Shown piece after piece: positions 44,075-63,284 of a stretch of DNA of 64,000 nucleotides. The position numbers and the translations under genes were made by a program. The stretch is from Luteimonas sp. S4-F44 (lineage in GTDB: Bacteria; Pseudomonadota; Gammaproteobacteria; Xanthomonadales; Xanthomonadaceae), in contig NZ_CP093340.1 in the NCBI RefSeq assembly GCF_022637415.1, positions 2,418,001 through 2,482,000 on the forward strand, given 5' to 3'. The notes below the pieces were generated by a model. It was given only the letters and a program-made list of their open reading frames with translations. It was not told the origin of the DNA and ran no database searches. Within the stretch, counting starts at the first letter, position 1. Each line of letters opens with the position of its first letter.

Positions 44075-44160
44075 AAACCAGGGTCAGAGTCGAATTTAGA
44101 GCCATCGACCGGCGCGACCTGCCCCGGTGCCGGCGAAAAATGGACTCGGACCCCGGTTTT
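44075..44160. repeat. REP-like palindrome, copy 2 (degenerate)
   Basis: AAACCAGGGTCAGAGTCGAATTT faces TGGACTCGGACCCCGGTTTT. The arms share the AACCGGGGTCAGAGT core but carry several mismatches. It lies 99 bases after copy 1 and 8 bases before the stop of the convergent sensor-domain gene. Confidence 0.8.
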
Positions 44161-49697: not shown

Positions 49698-51509
49698 TTA
49701 GCGAGGTTGGGGCGACGCCAACACCCCTGCACGCCCCAGGCGCGCACGGCCGAGCGCCCACAGCGCGGTCGTTGCCAGCAGCCAGGCCAGCGCCCAGGGC
49801 CAGCTCGAACCGGGGGCCGCGGCCTGCGATGCGCGGCCGCCGGAGCGCTCGCGCACCAACGCCTGTGTCCTGGCGCGTTGCTGCGCGGCCGAAAGAGCCG
49901 GGGCGTCTTCGCTGGCGCGCACCTGCAGCGGCCAGCGCCGATCGGCATCGACGATCCGGTACCAGCCGGCAACGCGTGGCCACAGGCCGGCGCAATCGCG
50001 CGCCGCCGGATCGCGCAGCAGCGGGATCGCGCGCCCGTCCGGGGCGATCGCCTGCGCGTCGGGCCCGAGCCCGCACAGCGCGACGCGCTCGCCGACCCAA
50101 GCCGCCCCCTCGACCGTCGCCGTGTCCCGGTCGCCGGCACGGGCCAGCGTGCCCGCCCAACTACTCCACAATGCCGCGTGCAGGTCGGCGCGGCCGGCCA
50201 GCGGCAGGCGCCAACTGTCGGCCAGCGTGACCAGACCGATGCGGCCACGGCCCCAGGCCTGCCAGCGCATCATGTCCTGCGGGCTGGCCGCACTCGCCGG
50301 CAGCCCTCCCGCCAACGGACGATAGGTCAGCGCCGGCGGTGCCTCGCCCGCCAGCAGCGGATCGAACGGCGCATCGACGCTGCCAGGCCCGGCCCACGCG
50401 CGCAGCCGCGCCGCCTCGCTCGGGCCCGGGTCGGGGCGCCACGTGCGCACCGGCCCCGCTTCGATCGCAAGACCGGTGCCGCGCAGCCACTCGCGCAACG
50501 CCCTCGACGGTGGCTGCGGTGCATGCACCAGCACGCCGAGACCATTCGCCACCGCGCTGCGCAGCGCGGCGCGCGTGCCTGCGCTCAAGCCGTCGAATGC
50601 GCGCGCCTCGAGCAGTACCAGATCCTGCTCGGCCAAGCCGGCCGCATCGAGCGCGGGCGCGTCGCCGACACCGGTGCCGCCGCCCAGGGCCACCCGCCAA
50701 CGCAGGCGCAGGCCCGTGTCCTCGGCCCAGCGGCGCAGCGCGCGCAGGTCCGGGTTCGGCGCACCGGCGAGCAGCAGCACGCGCACCGGAGAGGTCTCTT
50801 CAACGATCACCGGCACCTCGACCCGGGACAGCTCGGCGTCGTCGGCATCGCGCACGCGCACGCTGAACAGCGCAGCGCCGACACCGCGCGCGGTGCCGGC
50901 CAAGCGGAAACCACCCGCCTCGTCCAGCGCGGACGTATCGACGATGCGGCCGGCCGGATCGAACAATGCAGCCTGCGCGCCTTCGCGCCCGGCGACCCGG
51001 CCACGCACCTCGAAGCGCGCGCCCGGCGCGACGTCGCGCAGCGTCTCGAGCGCGACGATGCCGTCCGGCAGTGCCGCCGGCACGAACGCCAGCGCACGAT
51101 CGCCGACCGCGTCACGGTCGCGCGCCGTCAGACCAGCGCCGACGATCGCCAGCGCCTGCACATCGGGGTGACGCCGCAGTGCGGTTGCCAGATCGGGCAT
51201 CCGCAGTGCCCCGAGCGGCCCGTCGCCGGCCTCGGGCAATGCGACCACGCGCGGCGTGCCCGGCACTGGCAAGCCCTGCCATCCGGCGGTCAGTACGACC
51301 AAGGTGTCGCGTGCGACCGGCACCGGCGGCGGCTGCAACGTGCGCGCCAGCAGTCCGGCGGAGACCATGGTCAACACTGCGAGCACACACGTCCGCCATG
51401 CCGCGGGCCGGGCCTCGCGCGGCGCGCGCAGGTGCGCGATCGCCAGCCGCAGGATCGACAACGCGGCGGCGGCGCACAACAGCGGGAGCAACCAGCGCTC
51501 GGGCGTCAT
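49698..51509 (-). CDS. Membrane protein closing the MoxR/DUF58 cluster
   Basis: A 603-residue protein with two N-terminal helices (WLLPLLCAAAALSILRLAI and TCVLAVLTMVSAGLLA), a long periplasmic part and a C-terminal helix (WALAWLLATTALWALG). Segments such as PVRVLLLAGAPNPDLRALRR and GLGVLVHAPQPP resemble the class-I glutamine-amidotransferase-like fold seen in the C-terminal halves of some BatA-cluster proteins, but catalytic residues are not evident. I do not recognise a named family. It overlaps the DUF4175 gene by 4 bases and is the last of five coupled genes. Confidence 0.75.
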   Translation of the reverse strand: MTPERWLLPLLCAAAALSILRLAIAHLRAPREARPAAWRTCVLAVLTMVSAGLLARTLQPPPVPVARDTLVVLTAGWQGLPVPGTPRVVALPEAGDGPLGALRMPDLATALRRHPDVQALAIVGAGLTARDRDAVGDRALAFVPAALPDGIVALETLRDVAPGARFEVRGRVAGREGAQAALFDPAGRIVDTSALDEAGGFRLAGTARGVGAALFSVRVRDADDAELSRVEVPVIVEETSPVRVLLLAGAPNPDLRALRRWAEDTGLRLRWRVALGGGTGVGDAPALDAAGLAEQDLVLLEARAFDGLSAGTRAALRSAVANGLGVLVHAPQPPSRALREWLRGTGLAIEAGPVRTWRPDPGPSEAARLRAWAGPGSVDAPFDPLLAGEAPPALTYRPLAGGLPASAASPQDMMRWQAWGRGRIGLVTLADSWRLPLAGRADLHAALWSSWAGTLARAGDRDTATVEGAAWVGERVALCGLGPDAQAIAPDGRAIPLLRDPAARDCAGLWPRVAGWYRIVDADRRWPLQVRASEDAPALSAAQQRARTQALVRERSGGRASQAAAPGSSWPWALAWLLATTALWALGRARLGRAGVLASPQPR

Positions 51510-53722
51510 CGCGCACCCTCCTGCAGCGCATCGAGATAGCGCGCGCCCATCGCGTCGATCGCGGCGCGGCGCGGCGGCGCCGGCAGCGGACGCTGCAACA
51601 CCTGCCACAACTGCGCGCGCAGGGCCTGCCGGCATGCGGTGCAGGCTGGATCGCGCTGCAGCGCGTCGATCGCGGCCAGCAACGCAAGCGGATCGTCGAG
51701 CGCGCGCGGCTGCGTTTGCGCCCAGGCGACGAGCGCGGCCGGGTCGAAGGCCTCGTCCCAGGCCAGCGCCTGCCAGGCCGCCATCGGGGCGTCGAGTTCG
51801 ACCGCCGCCGGGCCCGGCACCGCACGCGGCGCGATGCCATCGCGATCGCCGCCCAGACGCCGGGCGAAATCGACCGGCGGCAGCGCTGTGCCCACCCGTG
51901 CCAGATAGATGCGGTCGGCCTGCTGGACCTCCTTGATCAGCACCAGTGCGCGGTTCGCCGGCGCCAGCGCTTCGCGCGGCGCGGCCTGGCGCAGGTGCAG
52001 CTCGGACTGCCACATCTCGCGCAACGCGCTGCGCAGCAGTTCGCGCGTCTTCGGGTCGAGCAACGTTGCCGCCTCCGGCAAGTCGTGGGTGTGGCCGAAG
52101 GCCTCGAGTACGTCGTCGGCACGGCCGAACGTCGTCCCGTCAGCGGGCCTGTGGTCATGATCGTGGTCGTGGTCGTCGTGCGCGTCGTCGTGCGCAGGCG
52201 CCGCCTGTGTCGCGGGCGCGGCAGCGGACGGATCGTCTTGACCAAAATCGTCGATCGGCAGGGGCTTGCGCGGCGGCGGGGGCGGCGTGTCGTCGGCGTC
52301 GGCGGTCGGCGGCGGCCGCGCATGGCCTTCCGACTCCTCGCCCAGGAACTGTCCATAGCGCAGGCGCAGCAAGCGCTGATCGACGCCCAGCGTGTCGGAG
52401 CGCGTCTCGAACGTCTCGCGCGTGAGCCGCGGCTGCTCGGCAATCAGCGCTTCGGCATCGAGAATGATCTGGCGCTGGCTGCGGAAGTACGCCGGTAACA
52501 CGTCGCGCGCCAGGCCTTCGAGCCCATCGGCATCGGGTGGCGTCGGCGGCGGCCAACGCAGGATCAGACTGGCGCTGCGGGCCTGTTGCGGTGTGGGCAC
52601 GCGGGTGTCGCGGACCTCGAGCTGAGCCACCAGGTCGCCGCCCTCCTCCAGGCCCAGCGCGGCGGGGTCGAGCGTCGCCACGAACGTGCGCGCCCGTGCG
52701 TCACCGGTGCCGTGCAAAGTGCGGGTGTGGTCCTCGAACGTCACCGCCTCGCCACTGCCGCGGGTCACGGTGATGCGCAGGCGCGCGTCCGCCGCGACGC
52801 CGAAGTCGTCGGTCGCCTCGAACGCCAGCGCCCAGGCACGTTGGCCGCGCGTGTACGTCGACAGCGTGGTCTCGGGCGCGCGCACGCGCACCTCCGGCGG
52901 ACGGTCGGGCAGCGCCTCGAGCCGCCAGGGCTGCGCACGCGCGATGACACCGTCGGTGTCGCCATCGACCGCGATGCGGTACAGCCACGACTGCTCGAGC
53001 CGCAGCGTCGCCGTCCAGTCCTCGCCCTGACGGACGAACGCCAGCGCGCGGCCGTCGTGCAACTGCAGGGCCACGCGCTGCGGCTGCGGCGAAAAGCGCA
53101 GCGTCCAGTGCAACGTCGCCCCGATCGTCGCCTGCGCGTCGAGTTCGGCCTGCGTGCGCGGTGCCAGACCGGTGTAGGCCGGCGACTCGATCCGCAGCGT
53201 TTGCGCGCGCAGCACCGGCGCGCCCGGTGACCCGGTCCGTGTGGGCACGCGGTCGATCGCGCGAGGCGGCGCGGCCGTTGGCCAGGCCAGGGTAGCCACC
53301 GTCAGCGCTACGCCCACCGACCACGCCAAGAGCAGCGCGCGCCACGGCCAGGGCGCCGGTGCCGGTGTCCACGGCCGCGCGGCGAGTCGGCCTTCCAGCC
53401 GCGCACGTTGCAGCTGCGCCAAGGGCGCGAGCGCGGCGGGTTCGGCGAATAGCAATGCGGCGCTGTCCTCCATATCGCGACGATCGGCATCGAGCCGGCG
53501 CACGAGCCAACGCAGGCCGGCACGGCGGATCCGGCGTGTGGCGATGACCGCGGCGAGCGCGACGCCCAGCAACGCTGCCACGACCGCCGCCGCGCCCCCG
53601 GCCATCCGCCAGGCGAGCGCTGCCAGACCAATCGCCACCGGGACGGCCACCAGCACGATGCCCAGGGCCGTGCGCCGACGTGTCGCGGCGCGCACGCGCA
53701 GCAGCGCAGACACGACGCTCAT
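51506..53722 (-). CDS. DUF4175-like membrane protein with His/Asp-rich stretch
   Basis: A 738-residue protein with helices near residues 23-65 and 130-150 and a large periplasmic region. Layout and content match the DUF4175 proteins of MoxR clusters (LRIESPAYTGLAPRTQAELD, RIAVDGDTDGVIARAQPW). A notable piece is a metal-binding-like run HDDAHDDHDHDHDH. An extra helical C-terminal half ends the protein. Molecular function is unknown. It overlaps its neighbours on both sides by 4 bases. Confidence 0.78.
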   Translation of the reverse strand: MSVVSALLRVRAATRRRTALGIVLVAVPVAIGLAALAWRMAGGAAAVVAALLGVALAAVIATRRIRRAGLRWLVRRLDADRRDMEDSAALLFAEPAALAPLAQLQRARLEGRLAARPWTPAPAPWPWRALLLAWSVGVALTVATLAWPTAAPPRAIDRVPTRTGSPGAPVLRAQTLRIESPAYTGLAPRTQAELDAQATIGATLHWTLRFSPQPQRVALQLHDGRALAFVRQGEDWTATLRLEQSWLYRIAVDGDTDGVIARAQPWRLEALPDRPPEVRVRAPETTLSTYTRGQRAWALAFEATDDFGVAADARLRITVTRGSGEAVTFEDHTRTLHGTGDARARTFVATLDPAALGLEEGGDLVAQLEVRDTRVPTPQQARSASLILRWPPPTPPDADGLEGLARDVLPAYFRSQRQIILDAEALIAEQPRLTRETFETRSDTLGVDQRLLRLRYGQFLGEESEGHARPPPTADADDTPPPPPRKPLPIDDFGQDDPSAAAPATQAAPAHDDAHDDHDHDHDHRPADGTTFGRADDVLEAFGHTHDLPEAATLLDPKTRELLRSALREMWQSELHLRQAAPREALAPANRALVLIKEVQQADRIYLARVGTALPPVDFARRLGGDRDGIAPRAVPGPAAVELDAPMAAWQALAWDEAFDPAALVAWAQTQPRALDDPLALLAAIDALQRDPACTACRQALRAQLWQVLQRPLPAPPRRAAIDAMGARYLDALQEGAR

Positions 53723-54852
53723 GCGGCCATGTTCCGACGCGCGGCGGCGGCCAGCCAGCGCTCGAGCGCGAATGCCAGCGCGACCAGCAGCGCCCACCAC
53801 GGCCTGAGGTCGCGCGGCACCGGCGGATAGGCCGTCAGCCCGCTGGCGGGAGTCAGGTCCGCGGCGGCGATGCGTGCCGGCGCCGGCCCGGGCTGCAGAC
53901 GATCGCGCAGTCGTGCAGGGAAACCGGGATCGAGCAGTTCCTGGTCACGCGCCGGGTCGAACGTGCCACGCCAGCGCACACAGGTTGCCGCGCCGCAGGC
54001 CGCACGCTCGAAACCCACGTCATCGACGCTGGCGTGCCAGTCCGTGCCCTCGGGCAGCAACGCCGCCGGGCCCAGCAACAGCGTGCGGCCAGCCGCAGCC
54101 TCGAGCAATGCGGGCGGCGGCGCGCTGGCGCTCCACCATGCGAGCGCGGCCTGCGCGCGCGGCGTCGCATCGGCGGTCGGGCGTTGCAGTGCATCGGCAT
54201 CGTCGGGACGCCAGGCGTGTGCGACCGCGGCCAGCACGCGCAGTGTCGGGTCGTCATCGGCGATGCCGAACACATCGAGCTGCGGCCACCCCGCGCCGGG
54301 GGGCGCGCCCGGCGCGGACGCCTCCGGCACGACCTGCCAGTCCACGGCGCGCGACAAGGTCACGCGCCCGCCATCGGCGCCGTCGATGGTCTCGGGCACG
54401 ACCACCGTCAGTGCGGTGCCGGCAGGCAGCGTCGCGTCCAATTCCCGCAGCAGGCTGGCGACTGGCACCGGGCCCGTCGGTGCGACGGTGTCGCGCGCCT
54501 GCGGAAAGCCCGGCGCCAGCCAACGCACCGGCGCGTCGGGATCGGTTGGCGGCATCGCGTCGGCCGCCACGCCCGGCACGACCACCGTCCATCGCGCCGG
54601 GGCCGCGCCGCCATGCAGCACCGGCCACGCCAGCCACAGTGCGAGCAATGCGAGCAGCAGCAGACGGGCCAGCAGCAAGGGCCAGTCGTCGAAGCGCAGC
54701 CGTCGGCGCGGCTTCGGCCGCTCGCGCAGCCAGCGCAATGCCGCGAACGGCGTGGGCCGCGTGGCGTCGCGGCGCGCCAGGTGCAACAGCAGCGGCAGCA
54801 ACAGCGCCGCCAGCGCAGCGAGCGCGGCCGGTGCGAGCAGGCCGAGGCTCAT
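53719..54852 (-). CDS. BatA-type N-terminal domain protein
   Basis: A 377-residue protein. The first 70 residues match the aerotolerance-regulator N-terminal domain (LGLLAPAALAALAALLLPLLL, LHLARRDATRPTPFAALRWL, then PLLLARLLLLALLALWLAWP), which holds two helices. A periplasmic region follows and a C-terminal helix (WWALLVALAFALERWLAAAA). No VWA metal site is visible, unlike classical BatA. It overlaps DUF58 and DUF4175 genes by 4 bases each. Confidence 0.8.
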   Translation of the reverse strand: MSLGLLAPAALAALAALLLPLLLHLARRDATRPTPFAALRWLRERPKPRRRLRFDDWPLLLARLLLLALLALWLAWPVLHGGAAPARWTVVVPGVAADAMPPTDPDAPVRWLAPGFPQARDTVAPTGPVPVASLLRELDATLPAGTALTVVVPETIDGADGGRVTLSRAVDWQVVPEASAPGAPPGAGWPQLDVFGIADDDPTLRVLAAVAHAWRPDDADALQRPTADATPRAQAALAWWSASAPPPALLEAAAGRTLLLGPAALLPEGTDWHASVDDVGFERAACGAATCVRWRGTFDPARDQELLDPGFPARLRDRLQPGPAPARIAAADLTPASGLTAYPPVPRDLRPWWALLVALAFALERWLAAAARRNMAA

Positions 54853-55751
54853 CGTGGCCGATCGCCGAACAGCGCGCGCAGCACACCCTCGGGCGGCGCA
54901 TCGGCGACATGTGTCGCGAACGCGATGCCCGCGCCGGCCAGTCGAGCCGCGAGCGCGCGCTGCGCCGCACCGAAGCGTACGAGGTAATCGGCGCGCAGCG
55001 CCGGCCCGTCTCCGAGCAGCGCCTCGCCGGTTTCGGGATCGACGAAGCGGCGGCCATCGCAGAACGGGAAATCGCGTTCGTCGGCGGTCAGCACCTGCAG
55101 CGCGACGACCTCGCGCCCGGCCCGCGCCAGCTGCAGCAGCGCGTCGACCGCGCCCGCGTCGAACCAGTCGCCGATCGCGACGACCAGGTCGCCGCGCGCG
55201 ATGCGGCCCCAAACGGGTGCCAGCGTCGCCGGATCGGGCCAGCCACCGGCGGGCGCGGCGCGCGCCAGCGCGTGGCGCAAGCGGTCGCGCTGCCGCGGCC
55301 CGATGCCCGGTGCGACCAGCGCGACGCCGGCGCCACCACAGGTCGCCAGACCGCAGGCATCGCCCTGGCGGTGCGCGATCTCCACCACGCAGGCCGCCAG
55401 CAAACGTGCGACCTCCAGACGCGTACGCTGCGGCGCGGCGTCGTCGGCCTGGGCCATCGACGCGGTGGTGTCGAGCAGCACCCAGGCCCGGACCGGGCTC
55501 TCGCGCTCGGCCTCGCGCACGAAGAAGCGATCGCTGCGTGCGTAGAGCTTCCAATCGATCTGCCGCGGCTCATCACCCGGCTCGTAGGCGCGGTACTGCG
55601 CGAACTCCAGGCCCGCGCCGCGATTGCGGCTGGCGTGCTGGCCCAGGCCGTCACGCCCCCGCGCCTGGCGCGGGCGCAGCCGCAATGCCGCCAGACAGGC
55701 CCGCAACGCAGGCGTCAGCCTATCGCCGGGCGGCGGGCCGTCCGGCGACAT
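54849..55751 (-). CDS. DUF58 domain protein
   Basis: A 300-residue protein with GAGLEFAQYRAYEPGDEPRQ and IDWKLYARSDRFFVREAERE, the defining DUF58 block. A degenerate von Willebrand A-like core (RAWVLLDTTASMAQ) follows. DUF58 proteins partner MoxR AAA+ ATPases. No membrane helix is seen. The start is uncertain: ATG at 55751 is used, and a GTG at 55778 would add nine residues. It follows moxR by 34 bases. Confidence 0.88.
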   Translation of the reverse strand: MSPDGPPPGDRLTPALRACLAALRLRPRQARGRDGLGQHASRNRGAGLEFAQYRAYEPGDEPRQIDWKLYARSDRFFVREAERESPVRAWVLLDTTASMAQADDAAPQRTRLEVARLLAACVVEIAHRQGDACGLATCGGAGVALVAPGIGPRQRDRLRHALARAAPAGGWPDPATLAPVWGRIARGDLVVAIGDWFDAGAVDALLQLARAGREVVALQVLTADERDFPFCDGRRFVDPETGEALLGDGPALRADYLVRFGAAQRALAARLAGAGIAFATHVADAPPEGVLRALFGDRPR

Positions 55752-55785: not shown

Positions 55786-56787
55786 TCAGCGGTCCGGTGC
55801 CGGCAGCGCGCGCAGCAGGCCGGCGACCACCGCATCGGCGTCGATCTGTCCGGCCTCCGCCGCGAACGACAGCACCAGCCGGTGACGCAGCACCGGCGCG
55901 ATCAATGCCGTGACATCCTCGCGCGTCGCTGCAAGCCGGCCCTGCAGCAACGCGCGCGCCTTGGCCGCGAGCACCAGCGACTGTCCGGCGCGCGGCCCGG
56001 CGCCCCAGCGCACGTACTCGCGCACGATTTCGGGGACGCCCTCGCCCGGCCGGGTCGCGCGCACCAGCGCGGCGATCCAGGCCAGCAGGTCGTCGCCCAG
56101 GTGCACCTGGCGCACCAATGCCTGCAGTGTCAGCACCGCAGCGGCGTCCATGACCCGCGGCACTTCGGCCTCCGCCGCCCCCGTCGTGCGCGCGAGGATC
56201 GCCTGCTCCTCGTCGGCATCCGGATAGCCCAGCGCGACATGCAGCAGGAAGCGGTCGAGTTGCGCCTCGGGCAAGGGATAGGTGCCGGCCTGCTCGATCG
56301 GATTCTGCGTCGCCAGCACGAAGAACGGCTGCGGCAGCGCCCGGGTCACGCCGGCATGGCTGACGGTGCGCTCGGCCATCGCTTCGAGCAGCGCCGCCTG
56401 GGTCTTGGGCGGCGTGCGATTGAGCTCGTCGGCCAGCAGCAACTGGGTGAACACCGGCCCTTCCTGGAAACGGAAATGCCGCCGCCCGGTGCCGTGATCC
56501 TCCTCGAGCAGTTCGGTGCCCAGCAGGTCACTGGGCATCAGGTCGGGCGTGAACTGCACACGCCGGAAGTCGAGGTCGAGCGCCTGGCCGAGTGTGCGTA
56601 CCAGCAGCGTCTTGCCCAGCCCCGGCACGCCTTCGAGCAGCACGTGCCCGCCGGCGAGCAGCGCCACCAGCAGCTGCTCGACGACCTCGGCCTGGCCGAC
56701 GACGGCGCGCGCGATCGCATCGCGCAGTGCATCGAGCTGCGCCAGACGCGTCCGCAGGTCGGCTTCGGTGGGGGTGGTGGCGTTCAT
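55786..56787 (-). CDS. MoxR-family AAA+ ATPase
   Basis: A 333-residue MoxR ATPase. Walker A is EGVPGLGKTLLVRTL, Walker B is LLADELNRTPPKTQAALLEA, sensor 1 is VLATQNPIEQAGTYPLPEAQ and the arginine-finger region is LDRFLLH. MoxR proteins act as chaperone-like ATPases for VWA or DUF58 partners and help mature or insert complexes. It lies 25 bases after DUF4159 and begins a tight five-gene block. Confidence 0.93.
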   Translation of the reverse strand: MNATTPTEADLRTRLAQLDALRDAIARAVVGQAEVVEQLLVALLAGGHVLLEGVPGLGKTLLVRTLGQALDLDFRRVQFTPDLMPSDLLGTELLEEDHGTGRRHFRFQEGPVFTQLLLADELNRTPPKTQAALLEAMAERTVSHAGVTRALPQPFFVLATQNPIEQAGTYPLPEAQLDRFLLHVALGYPDADEEQAILARTTGAAEAEVPRVMDAAAVLTLQALVRQVHLGDDLLAWIAALVRATRPGEGVPEIVREYVRWGAGPRAGQSLVLAAKARALLQGRLAATREDVTALIAPVLRHRLVLSFAAEAGQIDADAVVAGLLRALPAPDR

Positions 56788-56812: not shown

Positions 56813-57511
56813 TCATGCGGTCAGTGCGTACATCACGATATTGACCGCGAACTTGGTGTTGTCCTGCGCCAGGAAGCGCTTGTTGCGCCAGTCGTAGTCC
56901 CATTCGCAGCCGTAATCCTTGTTGCTGTAGAGCACCGCCAGCCGGCCATCGATCTCGATGCCCTTGAGGTAGTCGTGCACCAGGTCGTCGCCCCAACCGT
57001 TGAGCTCGAAGCCGGTCGCCGGGGGACCGTCGGGAAAGCGGAAGAAGCTGTGGTAGAGCGCATGCGAATTCGGCAGTTTGCGCATCGCCGACGCGCCGAA
57101 GATCGCGGCCATCTGCGTCTCGAACGACTTGGCGAACAGACCGTCGATGTCGTGGTTGCAGTCGTCGACGAACACGAAGCCACCGCCGCGCACATAGCGC
57201 TCGAAGTTGCGCCGCTCGGCCGGACTGAACTCGACCAGGCGATGCCCGGCGAGATAGCAGAACGGCGCGGCGAGCATCTTCGGGTCCGACAGCGCGACCA
57301 CATGCTCGGTCGGATCGACGCGCAGATCGGTGTAGTCGATCAGCGAGGTGATCACATTCGACGGCATCCGCGCATCGACATCCCAGTCGCCCGACTCGTA
57401 GCGCAGCCGGGTGAACCAGAAATCGTAACGCGCCGATTGCGCCGGCACCGGCGGCAAGGCCAGCCCGGCCGCCGCCCCCAGCATCCACTGCAGCGCGCGG
57501 CGCCGATTCAT
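56813..57511 (-). CDS. Exported DUF4159 protein
   Basis: A 232-residue protein. The N terminus MNRRRALQWMLGAAAGLALP has a twin-arginine-like signal. The DUF4159 body (FTRLRYESGDWDVDARMPSN, RVDPTEHVVALSDPKMLAAP, GGFVFVDDCNH) has a Rossmann-like glutamine-amidotransferase-like fold. Function is unknown; in other bacteria it also sits with MoxR, DUF58 and BatA genes. It starts 111 bases after the tldE-like gene. Confidence 0.85.
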   Translation of the reverse strand: MNRRRALQWMLGAAAGLALPPVPAQSARYDFWFTRLRYESGDWDVDARMPSNVITSLIDYTDLRVDPTEHVVALSDPKMLAAPFCYLAGHRLVEFSPAERRNFERYVRGGGFVFVDDCNHDIDGLFAKSFETQMAAIFGASAMRKLPNSHALYHSFFRFPDGPPATGFELNGWGDDLVHDYLKGIEIDGRLAVLYSNKDYGCEWDYDWRNKRFLAQDNTKFAVNIVMYALTA

Positions 57512-57622
57512 CGCACCGATCCGCGTGTCCCGACCCGGGCAGCCAGGGATGAGGCCTGTGACCTGCCCCGCCCGGGCGACGAGCGCCGCCCGGACATCGT
57601 CATCACCCGCGATGCGAACGCC

Positions 57623-58957
57623 TCAGACCGCATCCGACAGCGAGGTGAAAGTGAAATCGCGCAGCCGCATCGGCGGCAGCATCATCACCATCGACGACTC
57701 GTCGCCGCCAACGCGCACCGGCCGGCCGAGCTCGTCGATGTTGTTGAGCATGATCACCGGCGATTCGTTGAAGCGGAAGTTCTTCAGCGGGTACTTGATC
57801 TCGCCGTTCTCGATATAGAACGTGCCATCGCGGGTCAACCCGGTCAGCAGCACGGTCTGCGGATCGACCATGCGGATGTACCAGGTGCGGGTGACCAGGA
57901 TGCCGCGATCGGTGCCGGCGATCAGGTCGGCAGTCGACTTGTCGCCGCCCGACATCAGCAGGTTGCCCGGCCGGCCGACCGCGCGCTTGCCCTGCTGCTG
58001 TGCCCAGAAGCGCGAGTAGTCGAGGTTGGCGACCTTGCCGTTCTCGATGATCGCCATCTTCTCGCGCGGCAGACCGTCGTTGTCCCACGGCAGCACCGGT
58101 GCCTCCGGGTGCCAGGGGTCGGCGACGATGTTGACGCGTGGGTCGTAGACCTGTTCGCCGAGCTTGTTGCCGCCACCACGCTTGGACAGGAAGCTGCGCC
58201 CCTCGTCGGCGGTACGCGCATCGAAGTAGCGCATCATGAACGAGATCAGCCCGGCGGCCGCGGCCGGCTCCAGAATCACGGTGTACTTGCCCGGCTCGAG
58301 CGCCTGGGCCTGGGCCGACTCGCTGGCCTTGCGCATCGCCACGCGCACATCGCGGCCGGCGTCGAACGCGCTGGCGTCCTTGAGGTTGCGCCCGACCCAG
58401 CCCGAGCCACGGCCGTCCTCGGTGCGCACGGTGCAGGTGTAGTTGAAGTTGGTCGCCTGCTGGTAACCGAAGTTGCCGTTGCTGTTGGCGAAGGCGACGA
58501 AGCTGCGGCCGTCGTCGAGGAAGCCGGCGGCCACCAGTTGCTCGGCCCGGCACGGGGCGATCGAATCGGCCGCGACCTGCGCGCGGAACTCGGGGGTGAT
58601 CGCCGCGGTGGATTCGCTGAACGTCGGGCTGGCGCGGTAGTCCTGCTTGCCGATCGCCGGCAGGAACTCGGGGTTTTCCGGCGCCAGCCGGGCGAGGTCT
58701 TCGGCGCGCTTGACCACGTTGCGCAGCGAGGCATCGTCGAAGGCATTGATGCTGGCCGTGCCCACGCGCTTGCCGAAGGCGACCTGCACGCTGAGTTCGG
58801 CATTGCTGACGATGCCGCTGGTGGACACGTTGTTGAGCGCGAAGCGGATGTTGCCGTCGATCGAGCCCGACAGGGTGGCGGTGCACTCGTCGGCGGTGGA
58901 CAGCGCGACGGTCTTCTCGAGCAGTTCGCGAGCCTGGGCTTCGGTGAAGATGGTCAT
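57623..58957 (-). CDS. TldE/PmbA-like protein, no signal peptide
   Basis: A 444-residue TldE-type partner subunit. The PmbA-like pattern includes SSYAFANSNG-like FVAFANSNGNFGYQQATNF, TVILEPAAAAGLISFMM and TRDGTFYIENGEIKYPLKNF. There is no HExxxH, as expected for TldE. The N terminus MTIFTEAQARELLEKTVALS lacks a signal peptide. An AAGGAG site precedes the ATG, 12 bases after the stop of tldD-like 1, so the two are co-translated. Its export and pairing raise a topology question. Confidence 0.87.
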   Translation of the reverse strand: MTIFTEAQARELLEKTVALSTADECTATLSGSIDGNIRFALNNVSTSGIVSNAELSVQVAFGKRVGTASINAFDDASLRNVVKRAEDLARLAPENPEFLPAIGKQDYRASPTFSESTAAITPEFRAQVAADSIAPCRAEQLVAAGFLDDGRSFVAFANSNGNFGYQQATNFNYTCTVRTEDGRGSGWVGRNLKDASAFDAGRDVRVAMRKASESAQAQALEPGKYTVILEPAAAAGLISFMMRYFDARTADEGRSFLSKRGGGNKLGEQVYDPRVNIVADPWHPEAPVLPWDNDGLPREKMAIIENGKVANLDYSRFWAQQQGKRAVGRPGNLLMSGGDKSTADLIAGTDRGILVTRTWYIRMVDPQTVLLTGLTRDGTFYIENGEIKYPLKNFRFNESPVIMLNNIDELGRPVRVGGDESSMVMMLPPMRLRDFTFTSLSDAV

Positions 58958-58969
58958 GGTCGGGACTCC

Positions 58970-60604
58970 TTAGCCGAGCGAACGCGCGGTGTTGATGACG
59001 TTGATGCCGTTGAAACGTGCGGTCGCCGAGCCGTGCGAGACCGCCGAGACCTGGCCGGGCTGGCCCTTGCCGTCGAAGAACGAACCGCCGAGGCGGTAGT
59101 CGCGTTCGTCGCAGACCGCGACGCAGGCGTTCCAGAACTCCGGCGTGCGGATCTGGTAAGCCACGTCCTCGATCATGCCGGCGATCTTGCCGTTGCGGAT
59201 CTCGTAGAACAGCTGACCGCCGAACTGGGCGTTATAGCGCTGCTGGTCGATCGAGAACGAGCCGTCGCCGACGATGTAGATGCCGTTCTCCACATCGCCG
59301 ATCATCTGCTCCACGCTCAGCGGCGTGCGGCCGGCGGCCAGCGAGACGTTGGGCATGCGCTGGAACTGCACGCTGGACCAGGCGTCGGCATAGCTGCAGC
59401 CGTCGGACTCGGTCTTGCCCAGGATGTGCGCCTGGTCGCGCGTGGCCTGGTAGTCGACCAGCTTGCCGGCGTCGATCAGGTTCCAGCGCTTGGTCGCCAC
59501 ACCTTCGTCGTCGAACGCCACTGCGCCCAGGCTCCCGGGCTGGGTCTTGTCGGCGAACACGGTCACCTGGTCGCTGCCGTACTGGAAGCGCTGCTCGCGC
59601 TTGTCGAGCGTGGCGAAGCTGGTGCCGGCGTAGTTGGCCTCGTAGCCGAGCACGCGGTCGAGTTCAAGCGGATGGCCGATCGACTCGTGGATGGTCAGCC
59701 AGGTGTGCGAGGGGTCGAGCACCAGGTCGTAGCGACCGGGCTTGACCGATGGCGCGCGCAGCTTCTCCTGCGCCTGGCGCGCCGCGGCGATCGCGTCCTC
59801 GCGCATGTCGTAGGAGGTGCTGTAGTTGACCACGCCGTTGGGCGAGACGACCTTGCCCGCGGACGCGCCATCGAGGTACTCGAAGCCCATGCCCATCGGC
59901 GCCGACAGACCATCGCGGGTGCGGAACTTGCCGCTGGCCTTGTCGATCGCGGTCACCGTCATCGGCGCCCAGATCCGGTGCACGTCCTGGTCGATGTAGG
60001 ACCCGTCGGTGCTGGCGAAGTACTTCTGCTCGTTGACCAGGAACAGCGTGGAGTTCACGAAGCTGGCACCGGCTGACAGCGCCGCGGCATTGACGCCCAG
60101 CAGCAGGTCCACCTTGTCCTTGACCGGTACCTCCATGCCGTTGCGCGCGATCGGCGTGCGCCAGGCGACCTCGCCCACGCCCTTGACCGGCGCCAGTTGC
60201 ACCGGCGCGGTCTGCACCTTGGCGTTGGCCTGCGCGATCGCGACCGCCTGGCGCGCGGCCTCGGCCACGCCCTGCTCGGTCAGCGAGTTGGTCGCGGCGA
60301 AGCCCCAGGCGCCGCCGGCGACGACACGCACGCCCACGCCGGTCGATTCGGTGCTGACCACGTTCTGGACCTTGTCCTCGCGGGTCATCACGAACTGGCG
60401 CAGATACCGGCCTACGCGTACGTCGCAGTAGCTCGCGCCCGCGGCGGTCGCCGCATTGAGGCCGGCATCGGCCAGTCGCTTCTTGAAGCCCACATCGAGC
60501 GCGGACAGCAGTTGCTCGGCAGCAATGACCTTGCCGAAGACGGCGGGCAGCAACAGGCCACCCGCGCCGACACCAGCGAGGGCGAGGAAATCGCGTCTAT
60601 GCAC
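58970..60604 (-). CDS. TldD-like metalloprotease 1 with twin-arginine signal
   Basis: A 544-residue TldD-family protein. The N terminus MHRRDFLALAGVGAGGLLLP is a twin-arginine signal, so the folded enzyme is probably exported. The zinc motif reads HESIGH (His306, Glu307, His311); Cys494/Cys498 in NACVAVCDERDYRLGG could supply the third ligand. The start is GTG at 60604, supported by a GGGAGA site 7 bases upstream; longer reading lacks a signal. It is a paralogue of tldD-like 2 and leads the tldE-DUF4159-moxR run. Confidence 0.87.
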   Translation of the reverse strand: MHRRDFLALAGVGAGGLLLPAVFGKVIAAEQLLSALDVGFKKRLADAGLNAATAAGASYCDVRVGRYLRQFVMTREDKVQNVVSTESTGVGVRVVAGGAWGFAATNSLTEQGVAEAARQAVAIAQANAKVQTAPVQLAPVKGVGEVAWRTPIARNGMEVPVKDKVDLLLGVNAAALSAGASFVNSTLFLVNEQKYFASTDGSYIDQDVHRIWAPMTVTAIDKASGKFRTRDGLSAPMGMGFEYLDGASAGKVVSPNGVVNYSTSYDMREDAIAAARQAQEKLRAPSVKPGRYDLVLDPSHTWLTIHESIGHPLELDRVLGYEANYAGTSFATLDKREQRFQYGSDQVTVFADKTQPGSLGAVAFDDEGVATKRWNLIDAGKLVDYQATRDQAHILGKTESDGCSYADAWSSVQFQRMPNVSLAAGRTPLSVEQMIGDVENGIYIVGDGSFSIDQQRYNAQFGGQLFYEIRNGKIAGMIEDVAYQIRTPEFWNACVAVCDERDYRLGGSFFDGKGQPGQVSAVSHGSATARFNGINVINTARSLG

Positions 60605-60884
60605 AGCAGGTCTCCCGAGAAGCGAAGGTCCGCAGCGAGCGCGGACGTGGCGATGAGATGGCGACGCGTCCCCTACGCGCCATCCGGATTGATGACATGC
60701 CGCGCGCGCCTCGTCCAGTGACGAATGGCACAGGCCTGCCACCTGAGTCGGATCCTGCGCGCTGCCGACTCGGCGATCACGCCGGCCGACCCCGGCATAC
60801 GACCGATGCCCTTGGCGTGGCGCCGCGGCGACCCTGCACCTTCCGCATCCGCGACCGGCTGCATCCACATCAGGAGATACTGCA

Positions 60885-61442
60885 ATGCCATTGACCCCAA
60901 CCCAGGCGAGCGAGGCCGTCGCCGCCCTGCTCGACGCGAGCGCCGAGCTGTTCTACGGCGGCGACCGGCCAACCGTGTTCGGCGAAGCGATGGTGCCGAT
61001 CGTGATCGAAGTGCCGGGCACCCAGCCCAATGGCAACCTGGCGCCGGCGACCGGCGGCTACGGCATCGAGGCCAGCCAGGGCCTGCTGGGCCTGGACGAC
61101 GAGGTCGCGATCAAGTTCGCACTCGCCCACGAAGCGGGACACGGCATGAGCGAACGGATCCTCGCCGACATCGGCCTGCACGGCATCAGCGGACCGGCCA
61201 CCGAAGTCATCGCCGATCTCGCCTCCGCTTATCTGCTGACCCGGGTCGGGCACGGCTGGCCGGAGGTTCTGGCCAGCGTGCGGGCCTGGCCACAGAACGG
61301 TATCTTCGACGAAGACGCCAGCGGCAATCACCCGTCCGGTGCCGACCGCGTCCGCCATGTCGAGACCCTTGCGCACGCGATGGCGCAGCAGCCACCGCCG
61401 TCGTTCGGCGAGACCGCGCTCGCGATCTGCCAGTCGCTGTAG
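60885..61442 (+). CDS. Small cytoplasmic zincin-like protein (HEAGH)
   Basis: A 185-residue protein without signal peptide. LAHEAGHGMSERI is an HExxH zinc motif, and TEVIADLASAYLL about 20 residues later offers Glu and Asp as third ligand, like the ExxxD of gluzincins. AVAALLDASAELFYG precedes it. No family is recognised; it could be a metallopeptidase or a structural zinc protein. AGGAG lies 9 bases upstream of the ATG. It is on the opposite strand between two tldD-like genes and ends convergent to the second. Confidence 0.75.
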   Translation: MPLTPTQASEAVAALLDASAELFYGGDRPTVFGEAMVPIVIEVPGTQPNGNLAPATGGYGIEASQGLLGLDDEVAIKFALAHEAGHGMSERILADIGLHGISGPATEVIADLASAYLLTRVGHGWPEVLASVRAWPQNGIFDEDASGNHPSGADRVRHVETLAHAMAQQPPPSFGETALAICQSL

Positions 61443-61449
61443 CGGCCCG

Positions 61450-61507
61450 GCGTCGGGACGATGCCACCGCGCTTCGCCCCGACGCGCGCTCGCTGCTACA
61501 GCGAGCG
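61450..61507. terminator. Two hairpins between convergent genes
   Basis: GCGTCGGG (61450-61457) pairs with CCCGACGC (61478-61485). Directly after, CGCTCGCTG and CAGCGAGCG (61487-61507) form a perfect 9-bp stem whose 3-base loop is the TAG stop codon of tldD-like 2. Together they can end transcription from both convergent genes; no T run is present. Confidence 0.55.
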
Positions 61508-63127
61508 TGCGGTGTTGATCACGTTGATGCCGTCGAAGCGCGTGGTCGCCGCGCCGTGCGAGACCGCCGAGACCTGGCCGGGCTGGCCCTTGCCGTCGAA
61601 GAACGAACCGCCGAGGCGATAGTCGCGTTCGTCGCAGATCGCGCTGCAGGCGTTCCAGAATTCCGGCGTGCGGATCTGGTAGGCCGCGTCCTCGACCATG
61701 CCGGCGATCTCGCCATTGCGGATCTCGTAGTACAGCTGTCCACCGAACTGGGCGTTGTAGCGCTGCTGGTCGATCGAGTACGAACCGCGCCCGTGGATGT
61801 AGAGGCCACGCTCGACGCCGGCGATCATCTCGCGCACCGTCAGCGGCGACCGGCCCGGCGACAGCGAGACGTTGGGCATGCGCTGGAATTGCACGCTCGA
61901 CCAGGCGTCGGCGTAGCTGCAGCCATCGGATTCGGTCTTGCCCAGCAGATGCGCCTGATCGCGCGTGGCCTGGTAGTCGACCAGGATGCCGTCCTTGACC
62001 AGGTCCCATTGCTTGCAGCGCACGCCTTCGTCGTCGTAGCCGACCGCGCCCAGGCTGCCGGGCTGGGTCTTGTCGGCGACGAAGTTCACGATCTCGCTGC
62101 CCCAGCGGTAACCGGCGTCGCGCTTGTCGAGTGTGGCGAAGCTGGTGCCGGCGTAGTTGGCCTCGTAGCCGAGCACGCGGTCGAGCTCGAGCGGGTGGCC
62201 GACGTTCTCGTGGATGGTCAGAAACAGGTTCGACGGATCGAGCACGAGGTCGTAACGGCCGGGCTGGACCGAGGGCGCGCGCAACTTCTCGCGGGCCTGC
62301 CGGGCGGCGGCGACCGCGTCCTCGCGCATGTCGTAGGCGCGGTCGTAGGCGACCACGCCGCCAGGCAGTTCGAAACGCTGCGCGGGGTCCGGCGTGAGGT
62401 ACTCGTAGCCCAGCCCCATCGGCGCCGACAGACCATCGCGGGTGCGGAACTTGCCGCTGGCCTTGTCGATCGCGGTGACCGTGAACGGCGCCCAGATCCG
62501 GTGCACGTCCTGGTCGATGTACGAGCCGTCGGTGCTGGCGAAGTACTTCTGCTCGTTGACCAGGAACAGCCGCGAGCCGACGAAATCGGCGCCGGCGGCG
62601 ATCGCGGCGGCATTGACGTCGAGCAGCAGCGCGACCTTGTCCTCGACCGGCACCGCCATACCGTTGCGCGCAATCGGCGTGCGCCAGGCGACCTCGCCCA
62701 CGCCCGCGACCGGCGCCAGTTGCACCGGCGTCGCCTGGATGCGCGCGTTGGCTTTCGCGATCGCCACCGCCTGACGCGCGGCCGCAGCGACGCTGTCGGG
62801 ATCGAGCGCATTGGTCGCCGCGAATCCCCAGGCGCCATCGGCGAGCACACGGATGCCCACGCCGGTGGATTCTTCGTTGACGACGTTCTCCACCCGCGCC
62901 TCGCGGGTCATCACGTACTGGCGCAGATAGCGGCCGATGCGCACATCGCAGTAGCCGGCGCCACCATCGCGCGCGGCCTGCAGGGCAACATCGGCGAGCC
63001 GTCTCTTGACGGCGGGGTCGAGCGCGGTGGTCAGTTCCTCGGCCGCGATCACCCGGCCGATCCCGCCCGGCAAGAACAGGCTGCCCAGCCCGATCCCCCC
63101 CAGGGCCATGAAGTCGCGACGCCGCAT
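61496..63127 (-). CDS. TldD-like metalloprotease 2 with twin-arginine signal
   Basis: A 543-residue paralogue of tldD-like 1, similar along the full length. The N terminus MRRRDFMALGGIGLGSLFLP is a twin-arginine signal. The zinc motif is HENVGH near residue 306, and NACSAICDERDYRLGG carries the matching Cys pair. A GGGGAGAG site sets the start at 63127; ten upstream codons are unlikely. It has no adjacent tldE-like gene, so it may share the partner encoded beside tldD-like 1. Confidence 0.87.
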   Translation of the reverse strand: MRRRDFMALGGIGLGSLFLPGGIGRVIAAEELTTALDPAVKRRLADVALQAARDGGAGYCDVRIGRYLRQYVMTREARVENVVNEESTGVGIRVLADGAWGFAATNALDPDSVAAAARQAVAIAKANARIQATPVQLAPVAGVGEVAWRTPIARNGMAVPVEDKVALLLDVNAAAIAAGADFVGSRLFLVNEQKYFASTDGSYIDQDVHRIWAPFTVTAIDKASGKFRTRDGLSAPMGLGYEYLTPDPAQRFELPGGVVAYDRAYDMREDAVAAARQAREKLRAPSVQPGRYDLVLDPSNLFLTIHENVGHPLELDRVLGYEANYAGTSFATLDKRDAGYRWGSEIVNFVADKTQPGSLGAVGYDDEGVRCKQWDLVKDGILVDYQATRDQAHLLGKTESDGCSYADAWSSVQFQRMPNVSLSPGRSPLTVREMIAGVERGLYIHGRGSYSIDQQRYNAQFGGQLYYEIRNGEIAGMVEDAAYQIRTPEFWNACSAICDERDYRLGGSFFDGKGQPGQVSAVSHGAATTRFDGINVINTARSL

Positions 63128-63204: not shown

Positions 63205-63284
63205 AACCGGGGTCAGAGTGCATTTTTGCTCGAAGGCACGCACGCATCATGCGACATGCGAAAAATGCACTTTGACCCCGGTTT
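63205..63284. repeat. REP-like palindrome, copy 3
   Basis: AACCGGGGTCAGAGTGCATTTTT faces AAAAATGCACTTTGACCCC with GGTT; the 23-base arms have a single mismatch. The loop includes GCATCATGCGACATGC, itself partly palindromic. This copy is the most perfect of the three and lies in the divergent region between tldD-like 2 and the DUF885 gene. Confidence 0.9.

Follow-up and report, generated by a model that had tools for sequence, protein, structure and literature searches.

We analysed a stretch of 64,000 nucleotides from Luteimonas sp. S4-F44 (contig NZ_CP093340.1, positions 2,418,001 to 2,482,000; hereafter the window, whose own numbering is used below) that carries two TldD-like metallopeptidase genes, the gene for a TldE-like partner and a cluster of genes around a MoxR ATPase. 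We consider it probable, at roughly 0.62, that these proteins belong to a distinct and probably periplasmic branch of the TldD/TldE metallopeptidases that is functionally united with a membrane module based on MoxR. This reading comes from comparison of sequences: a signal of the twin-arginine translocation (Tat) type is found on TldD only, the partner genes are shared even where their order is rearranged, the HExxxH motif is kept, and an aspartate replaces the cysteine expected at the third metal ligand. An earlier note on this DNA had proposed an exported TldD/TldE system beside the MoxR cluster; that central idea is well supported by the sequences compared here, with export itself as the predicted step.

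The set occupies the minus strand from 63127 down to 49698, in the order TldD2, TldD1, TldE, DUF4159, MoxR, DUF58, BatA-type, DUF4175-like and last membrane protein. Its features are as follows (aa, amino acids; TM, transmembrane segments; RR, twin arginine).

61496..63127, minus strand: TldD2, 543 aa, with Tat-type signal MRRRDFMALGG; HExxxH peptidase of the Asp third-ligand type, placed by the tree in a clade of family paralogues
63041..63127, minus strand: predicted Tat-type signal region of TldD2, with conserved RR motif (end approximate, ...RVIAAE)
62195..62212, minus strand: HENVGH metal/catalytic motif of TldD2
61595..61597, minus strand: Asp codon of TldD2 at the position of E. coli TldD Cys454
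58970..60604, minus strand: TldD1, 544 aa, GTG start, with Tat-type signal VHRRDFLALAG; HExxxH peptidase of the Asp third-ligand type
60518..60604, minus strand: predicted Tat-type signal region of TldD1, hydrophobic stretch at residues 6-24 (end approximate, ...KVIAAE)
59672..59689, minus strand: HESIGH metal/catalytic motif of TldD1
59072..59074, minus strand: Asp codon of TldD1 (FFDGKGQ) at the position of E. coli TldD Cys454
57623..58957, minus strand: TldE-like partner, 444 aa, without signal and without metal motif, starting 12 bases past TldD1
56813..57511, minus strand: free-standing DUF4159 protein (183.6 bits), GATase1-like fold, signal-like N terminus MNRRRALQW
55786..56787, minus strand: MoxR AAA+ ATPase (Pfam AAA_3)
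54849..55751, minus strand: DUF58 protein (Pfam), weak VWA_2 match
53719..54852, minus strand: BatA-type membrane protein, two N-terminal TM, central domain, one C-terminal TM
51506..53722, minus strand: DUF4175-like membrane protein, three N-terminal TM, large C-terminal domain, His-rich stretch
49698..51509, minus strand: last membrane protein, two TM, Ig-like domain, GATase1-like domain, C-terminal helix

Successive 4-base overlaps link the DUF58, BatA-type, DUF4175-like and last membrane genes and, together with the short distance between TldD1 and TldE, make the run from TldD1 through the last membrane gene look like one operon. TldD2 is separated from the rest by an open reading frame (ORF) on the plus strand. 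The earlier note had placed TldE between the two TldDs; it lies downstream of both.

For comparison we fetched, besides the window, 22 loci from its bacterial family and 8 further Pseudomonadota loci from outside that family. A scan of named genomes gave 79 loci from the best 80 of 578 confirmed, most of them Bacteroidota by title; these had been ranked by likeness to L086, a TldD locus from outside the family, and are therefore not an even sample.

Family membership and metal site of the TldD proteins

Both genes that the earlier note had called TldD-like are indeed so: in each, the three PmbA/TldD domains of Pfam all score past the curated cut-off. Both stay below the NCBIfam equivalog cut-offs PRK10735 (73.8 and 73.3 bits vs 513) and Arch_mtprotase_TldD (111 and 111.9 vs 635). 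By Pfam, TldE has the same fold domains as TldD and lacks the metal motif. The closest named proteins come from Luteimonas under the database name TldD/PmbA family protein. A Pfam search of the genome found five TldD/PmbA-type genes, namely TldD1, TldD2, TldE and an ordinary TldD and PmbA. The latter two lie at about 371-1126 of the window and just left of it, and all five genes fall within ~65 kb.

In E. coli TldD the metal is bound by His262, His267 and Cys454 (PMC5810440; articles given by PMC number are cited from excerpts). The ordinary TldD of the Luteimonas genome, aligned to 5NJ5, has Cys at the CGK position, with an offset introduced by the aligner at the third ligand in one multiple alignment. 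The third-ligand region reads FFDGKGQ or FNDGKGQ in TldDs of the module type vs FTCGKAE in L086, their nearest outside relative, which places Asp where Cys would stand. HExxxH is present in 190 of 191 TldD rows, the remaining row being cut by a contig end. Some rows read HESVAH, as did the seven inspected among TldDs at first scored as lacking HExxGH, in which the motif is thus intact. Among the 190 rows, the third ligand is Asp in 178, Cys in 11 (none of them with module genes) and unreadable in 1. A quick tree of 92 rows, with a long-branch warning for L137, split Asp-type from Cys-type TldDs with support 100 and grouped TldD2 of the window in a clade of second family copies.

Asp as a possible Cys replacement was noted earlier for Gemmatimonas sp. 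by Ghilarov et al., who held that it would render the metal site more thermolysin-like (Ghilarov 2017). What is new here is therefore the tie of the substitution to a Tat-type signal and a MoxR module. Among the Cys-type relatives, L098 and L100 have a TldD with a Tat-like start and no detected MoxR-module gene at the locus, perhaps a second exported type. L086 and L091-L097 hold Methylocystis-type TldD/TldE without a signal, and by eye L086 adjoins an apparent ABC transporter and substrate-binding protein.

Tat-type signals on TldD

Both window TldDs, with starts described as twin-arginine-like in the earlier note, carry RRDF, then a hydrophobic stretch and lastly IAAE, and come close to the Tat consensus SRRxFLK (PMC3712460). 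TldDs retained the RR pair in all 22 family loci. Of 179 Asp-side TldDs drawn from several phyla, 154 had the pattern RRx[FILMVA] among their first 16 residues, vs 8 of 5529 control stretches of 16 residues taken from the same TldD proteins; the motif thus exceeds chance. Relaxed to [RK][RK]x[FILMVA], the pattern matched 177 of the 179 and 281 of the 5529. With a looser RR pattern, 153 of 178 Asp-type TldDs were scored as RR; in loci with module genes, 132 were RR, 18 RK or KR, and none neither. Two matches under the loose pattern, in L091 and L093, were set aside on reading as not being signals. TldD thus bears a conserved Tat-type signal, from which its export is predicted.

TldE had a signal in none of 151 rows and begins right at its first helix. 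Five matches to the RR pattern and the two highest hydropathy values proved on reading to come from residues before the start or within a helix. The signal-free TldE of the earlier note is thus the rule, and no TldE homologue with a signal of its own appeared in the loci examined.

DUF4159 of the window has a weakly Tat-like start, MNRRRALQW. By eye, a signal-like start was present in 29 of 30 Pseudomonadota loci (RR in 13, RK in 3, and a single Arg such as in NRAQFL in 13), L083 having none. The tatC gene is present in the Luteimonas sp. S4-F44 genome and in 39 of the 40 genomes tested behind the 79 named-genome loci.

Conservation of gene set and order

The gene order, which the earlier note had suggested checking across Xanthomonadales, turned out to be conserved far beyond that group. 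TldD1-TldE followed by DUF4159 was found in 22 of the 22 family loci, with a second TldD interposed after TldE in three (L043, L044 and L047); the position of second TldD copies varied among the family loci. All 20 loci not ended by the contig go on to MoxR and DUF58, then to BatA, DUF4175 and the last membrane gene where the contig allows (L046 and L049 end at DUF4159, and L051 within BatA). Outside the family, the gene set was kept in all seven further Asp-type Pseudomonadota loci, with BatA undetected in L083, L084 and L085, and the eighth locus, L086, is a Cys-type relative without any module gene. L083, from a genome of the same class as the window, has two consecutive TldD-TldE pairs and, as noted above, a DUF4159 without signal.

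Many Bacteroidota loci hold the module with TldD first. Others, Pedobacter and Chitinophaga among them, are rearranged: DUF4159 precedes MoxR in divergent orientation, and TldD-TldE lies at the opposite end of the set. Across loci, TldE directly follows a TldD in 147 of 151 cases, with a median gap of 20 bases. Judged by these sequences, the set is a real module, widely conserved across Pseudomonadota and Bacteroidota, and its presence in both phyla suggests a housekeeping-like role.

No further gene recurred in at least 4 of 30 regions (up to 20 kb) beside the module, apart from aldehyde dehydrogenases (4 of 30), a large family. We also looked in these regions for small co-conserved genes (ORFs from 30 aa, matches >60 bits), which the earlier note had suggested seeking as substrates of a possible peptide-processing system. 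None recurred, nor did a precursor peptide, modifying enzyme or transporter, within the limit that very short or fast-changing peptides could escape such a search.

Co-inheritance of TldD and DUF4159

Among 60 genomes of the family, 23, counting that of the window, had TldD of the module type; DUF4159 was found in all of these and in one more, G007. The assembly of G007 is 72% complete, and its DUF4159, on a contig of 3 kb, is 80% identical to that of the window over residues 93-232. TldD matches at E 1e-60 occurred in 14 of 398 sampled Pseudomonadota, 13 of them at 63% identity or more; the third ligand was read in 10 of these 13, leaving out G151, G358 and G449. The fourteenth genome, G244, has a Cys-type TldD at 41% identity. 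DUF4159 was present in 106 of the 398, as short open frames (229-299 aa) in exactly the 13 genomes with module-type TldD and as frames of 578-1253 aa in the other 93 (G244 included). At five of these 93 long-DUF4159 loci, which we fetched, MoxR and DUF58 adjoin and TldD is absent. Of 247 genomes of Bacteroidota, the phylum of L113 (Pedobacter), 181 have DUF4159; TldD was found in 23, each of them one of the 181. Fisher tests of this co-occurrence treat genomes as independent, ignoring relatedness, and are therefore overstated.

Proteins of the membrane module

The same-strand continuation listed in the earlier note was borne out for DUF4159, MoxR, DUF58 and the BatA N-terminal domain; the DUF4175-like protein and the last membrane protein of the window had no Pfam match of their own. 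The DUF4175 label was obtained through relatives, 5 of 20 members matching at a best E of 5.8e-21 (the window's protein not among them). The one paper found to contain the word DUF4175, on AdvA of Acinetobacter, mentions neither MoxR nor TldD and was dropped as a lead. DUF4175-like proteins also have a His-rich stretch, often of the form xHxHD, that could be a metal site. The DUF4159 protein matched PF13709 over the curated cut-off. In the BatA-type protein only the BatA N-terminal domain was matched (E 0.01), and Pfam found no VWA domain. Structures of DUF4159 and the last membrane protein were modelled, and comparison of the models with PDB chains, made with VIA-align as the sole method, gave a GATase1-like domain in each. 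In the model of the last membrane protein, this domain accompanies two TM, an Ig-like domain and a C-terminal helix.

Proposed mechanism and alternative explanations

We propose that TldD would fold and bind its metal in the cytoplasm and pair there with TldE, after which the folded dimer would cross the inner membrane by Tat on the signal of TldD, with TldE as a hitchhiker. Co-export of the folded TldD-TldE dimer is the simplest reading, since it combines the one-sided conserved signal, the close adjacency of the genes and the need of E. coli TldD for TldE. Once in the periplasm, this hollow heterodimer would trim or degrade short unfolded peptides, as E. coli TldD/E does. From the cytoplasm, MoxR and DUF58 would assemble the peptidase, gate it or feed it by way of BatA, DUF4175 and the GATase-like protein, three proteins with large domains that are expected on the periplasmic side. 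DUF4159 may bridge the peptidase part and the MoxR membrane part. The hollow E. coli dimer takes up unfolded peptides; a periplasmic version tied to MoxR would suit the clearance or trimming of envelope peptides. The likeliest job is quality control of peptides or proteins in the envelope rather than maturation of a natural product, with export itself, the peptide substrates and the ATPase coupling as predicted elements.

A bolder version, which we regard as unlikely, would have TldD, TldE and DUF4159 exported as one Tat complex and docked to BatA, DUF4175 and the GATase-like protein at their periplasmic domains, driven by MoxR-DUF58 as an ATP-powered, membrane-spanning peptidase machine. DUF4159 would then mostly keep its own signal in Pseudomonadota, and in Bacteroidota, having lost it, would ride on TldD as TldE does. 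We know of no counterpart to an ATP-powered membrane-spanning periplasmic peptidase machine.

Several observations weigh against a periplasmic unit of TldD, TldE and the module. Under the looser pattern, RK or KR replaces RR in 22 Asp-type TldDs, and three more have no such pair: L165 lies at a contig end, the frame of L111 begins inside the mature protein, and L137 comes from an Acidobacteriota metagenome-assembled genome (MAG) with no module adjoining. An IAAE-like cleavage end is found in just 41 of 179 TldDs. DUF4159, one of the most conserved partners, has a clear signal in 1 of 48 Bacteroidota-side rows, at the Balneolota locus L101. The remaining rows start directly at the domain core or close to it; a longer start is possible for L110 and L154, and part of L168 is masked. 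With RR in 13 of the 30 Pseudomonadota loci, DUF4159 has no conserved RR signal, so that the twin-arginine start given for it in the earlier note stands for the window in weak form and does not extend to the group. The one tested genome without tatC is the MAG of L101, which has two TldDs, at least one with an RK-type start. In Bacteroidota, tatC was found in 246 of 247 genomes sampled; being near universal, its presence is no test of export, and we rejected it as a correlate of the module for lack of contrast. DUF4159 occurred without module-type TldD in 158 of these 247 genomes, and 17 loci, several of them short contigs, have an Asp-type TldD with no module gene adjoining (DUF4159 lay elsewhere in 8 of the 8 genomes checked among the 17). 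TldD rows outnumber TldE rows (191 vs 151), in part because of contig ends, so it may be that certain TldDs have a TldE in common or act by themselves. Finally, a Tat-like start is also found in 4 of 13 Cys-type relatives (L088, L098, L099 and L100, of which L088 and L099 are apparently one genome). Asp is therefore neither a simple export mark nor a simple answer to an oxidising periplasm, and we rejected it as a simple rule for export.

The surplus of TldD rows and the absence of a signal from every TldE would also fit export of TldD alone, as a homodimer or as TldD1-TldD2, with TldE as a cytoplasmic chaperone that folds or metal-loads TldD and releases it to Tat. The TldD homodimer of S. 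solfataricus (PMC5810440) and PbsP (PMC12257519) are reported to be active on their own. E. coli TldD, on the other hand, requires TldE for activity and is unstable as a homodimer (PMC5810440), folded complexes can leave by hitchhiking through Tat (PMC4273604), and TldE is nearly always the next gene; TldD leaving without TldE thus strikes us as improbable. The N-terminal motif itself could be idle, leaving TldD in the cytoplasm or on the inner face of the membrane, as the RK variants and the few copies without a signal might suggest. Such strong conservation over phyla relative to the controls, with a hydrophobic stretch after the motif, makes this extremely improbable.

What the exported pair would act on is a separate matter. 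Lincosamide examples are known among N-deacetylases of the TldD family. Going by the title of Vobruba 2022, which reportedly names N-deacetylases in this family, and with a metal site altered by the Asp ligand, the pair could be an amidohydrolase or N-deacetylase whose target is a metabolite of the envelope, for instance a fragment of the cell wall. We find this quite unlikely, considering that HExxxH is kept in 190 of 191 rows (the other cut by a contig end), in some as HESVAH, and that Asp would make the site more like that of thermolysin, as cited above. Maturation in the periplasm of ribosomally synthesized and post-translationally modified peptides (RiPPs) has a model in microcin B17, whose leader is removed by E. 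coli TldD/E (PMC5810440). The search of the 30 regions, with the limit stated there, speaks against such a pathway by the absence of a co-conserved small substrate gene, modifying enzyme or transporter, as does the housekeeping-like distribution of the module, and we hold RiPP maturation to be very unlikely.

If a periplasmic TldD/TldE peptidase tied to the MoxR module is indeed what these genes encode, such a conserved and exported branch would give a role in the periplasm to a family known from inside the cell, and best known for microcin B17 maturation. MoxR/Bat-type ATPase modules are widespread and have no agreed function, and a peptidase closely co-inherited with one of them offers a testable handle on what such modules do.

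Other features of the locus

The plus-strand ORF between TldD2 and TldD1 (60885-61442, 185 aa) contains a HEAGH motif and could be a small lineage-specific metallopeptidase. It had no Pfam or NCBIfam match, its best PDB match reached only E 0.88, and with no match in 30 related loci it was dropped as a part of the system. Just upstream of TldD2, at 63205-63283, lies an inverted repeat with 23-nt arms that are 96% complementary and spaced by 33 nt. A diverged copy of the arm lies at 44136-44154. The structure resembles a repeat element.

Comparison with known systems

Among the matches listed in open-licence PMC literature, we found no description of a Tat-exported TldD or of a link between TldD and Tat, nothing combining TldD, TldE and twin-arginine, and nothing with DUF4159; the module appeared only as the mention of an operon in Stenotrophomonas maltophilia. 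This operon, NIPOLPBK_01784-01792, was called a 'not-yet-characterized operon' and described as two TldD proteins, a MoxR-like ATPase, a putative protease, a membrane protein and three hypothetical proteins, some of its genes being downregulated in biofilm cells of all isolates studied (PMC7688217). Likened by this content, it is probably the same operon.

The system resembles E. coli TldD/TldE (PmbA; PDB 5NJ5), in which unfolded peptides enter a hollow dimer (PMC5810440), in its three-domain fold by Pfam, in HExxxH with its Glu, in a following Glu and Asp, in the Gly-Lys after the third ligand, and in a metal-free TldE partner encoded beside TldD. Unlike the E. coli protein, Luteimonas TldD has a Tat-type signal, Asp for Cys454 and MoxR-module genes as neighbours. 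The same genome also has the ordinary TldD and PmbA, separate from the module and ~57-60 kb away.

DUF58 proteins are usual members of Bacteroides aerotolerance (Bat) operons, and the module shares with these operons its MoxR and DUF58 genes and a BatA-type protein with two TM. It differs from them in that its BatA-type protein has no VWA match and in adding DUF4159, DUF4175, a GATase-like protein and TldD/E. For Bat proteins a periplasmic complex has been proposed, with the remark that 'Bat function remains elusive' (PMC3557215). A DUF4159 protein likewise adjoins MoxR and DUF58 in the MoxR-DUF58-(long DUF4159) clusters of other Pseudomonadota (the five loci fetched), which in contrast have DUF4159 in frames of 918-1182 aa and no TldD at the locus.

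Precedents for the proposed export are the Tat hitchhikers hydrogenase-2 (HybO/HybC) and PaoABC, a ternary complex (PMC4273604), which, like TldD and TldE, have a signal on one subunit and none on the partner or partners. Unlike these redox enzymes, the Luteimonas pair is a predicted peptidase dimer with predicted export and, if this holds, would be an example of Tat hitchhiking outside redox enzymes.

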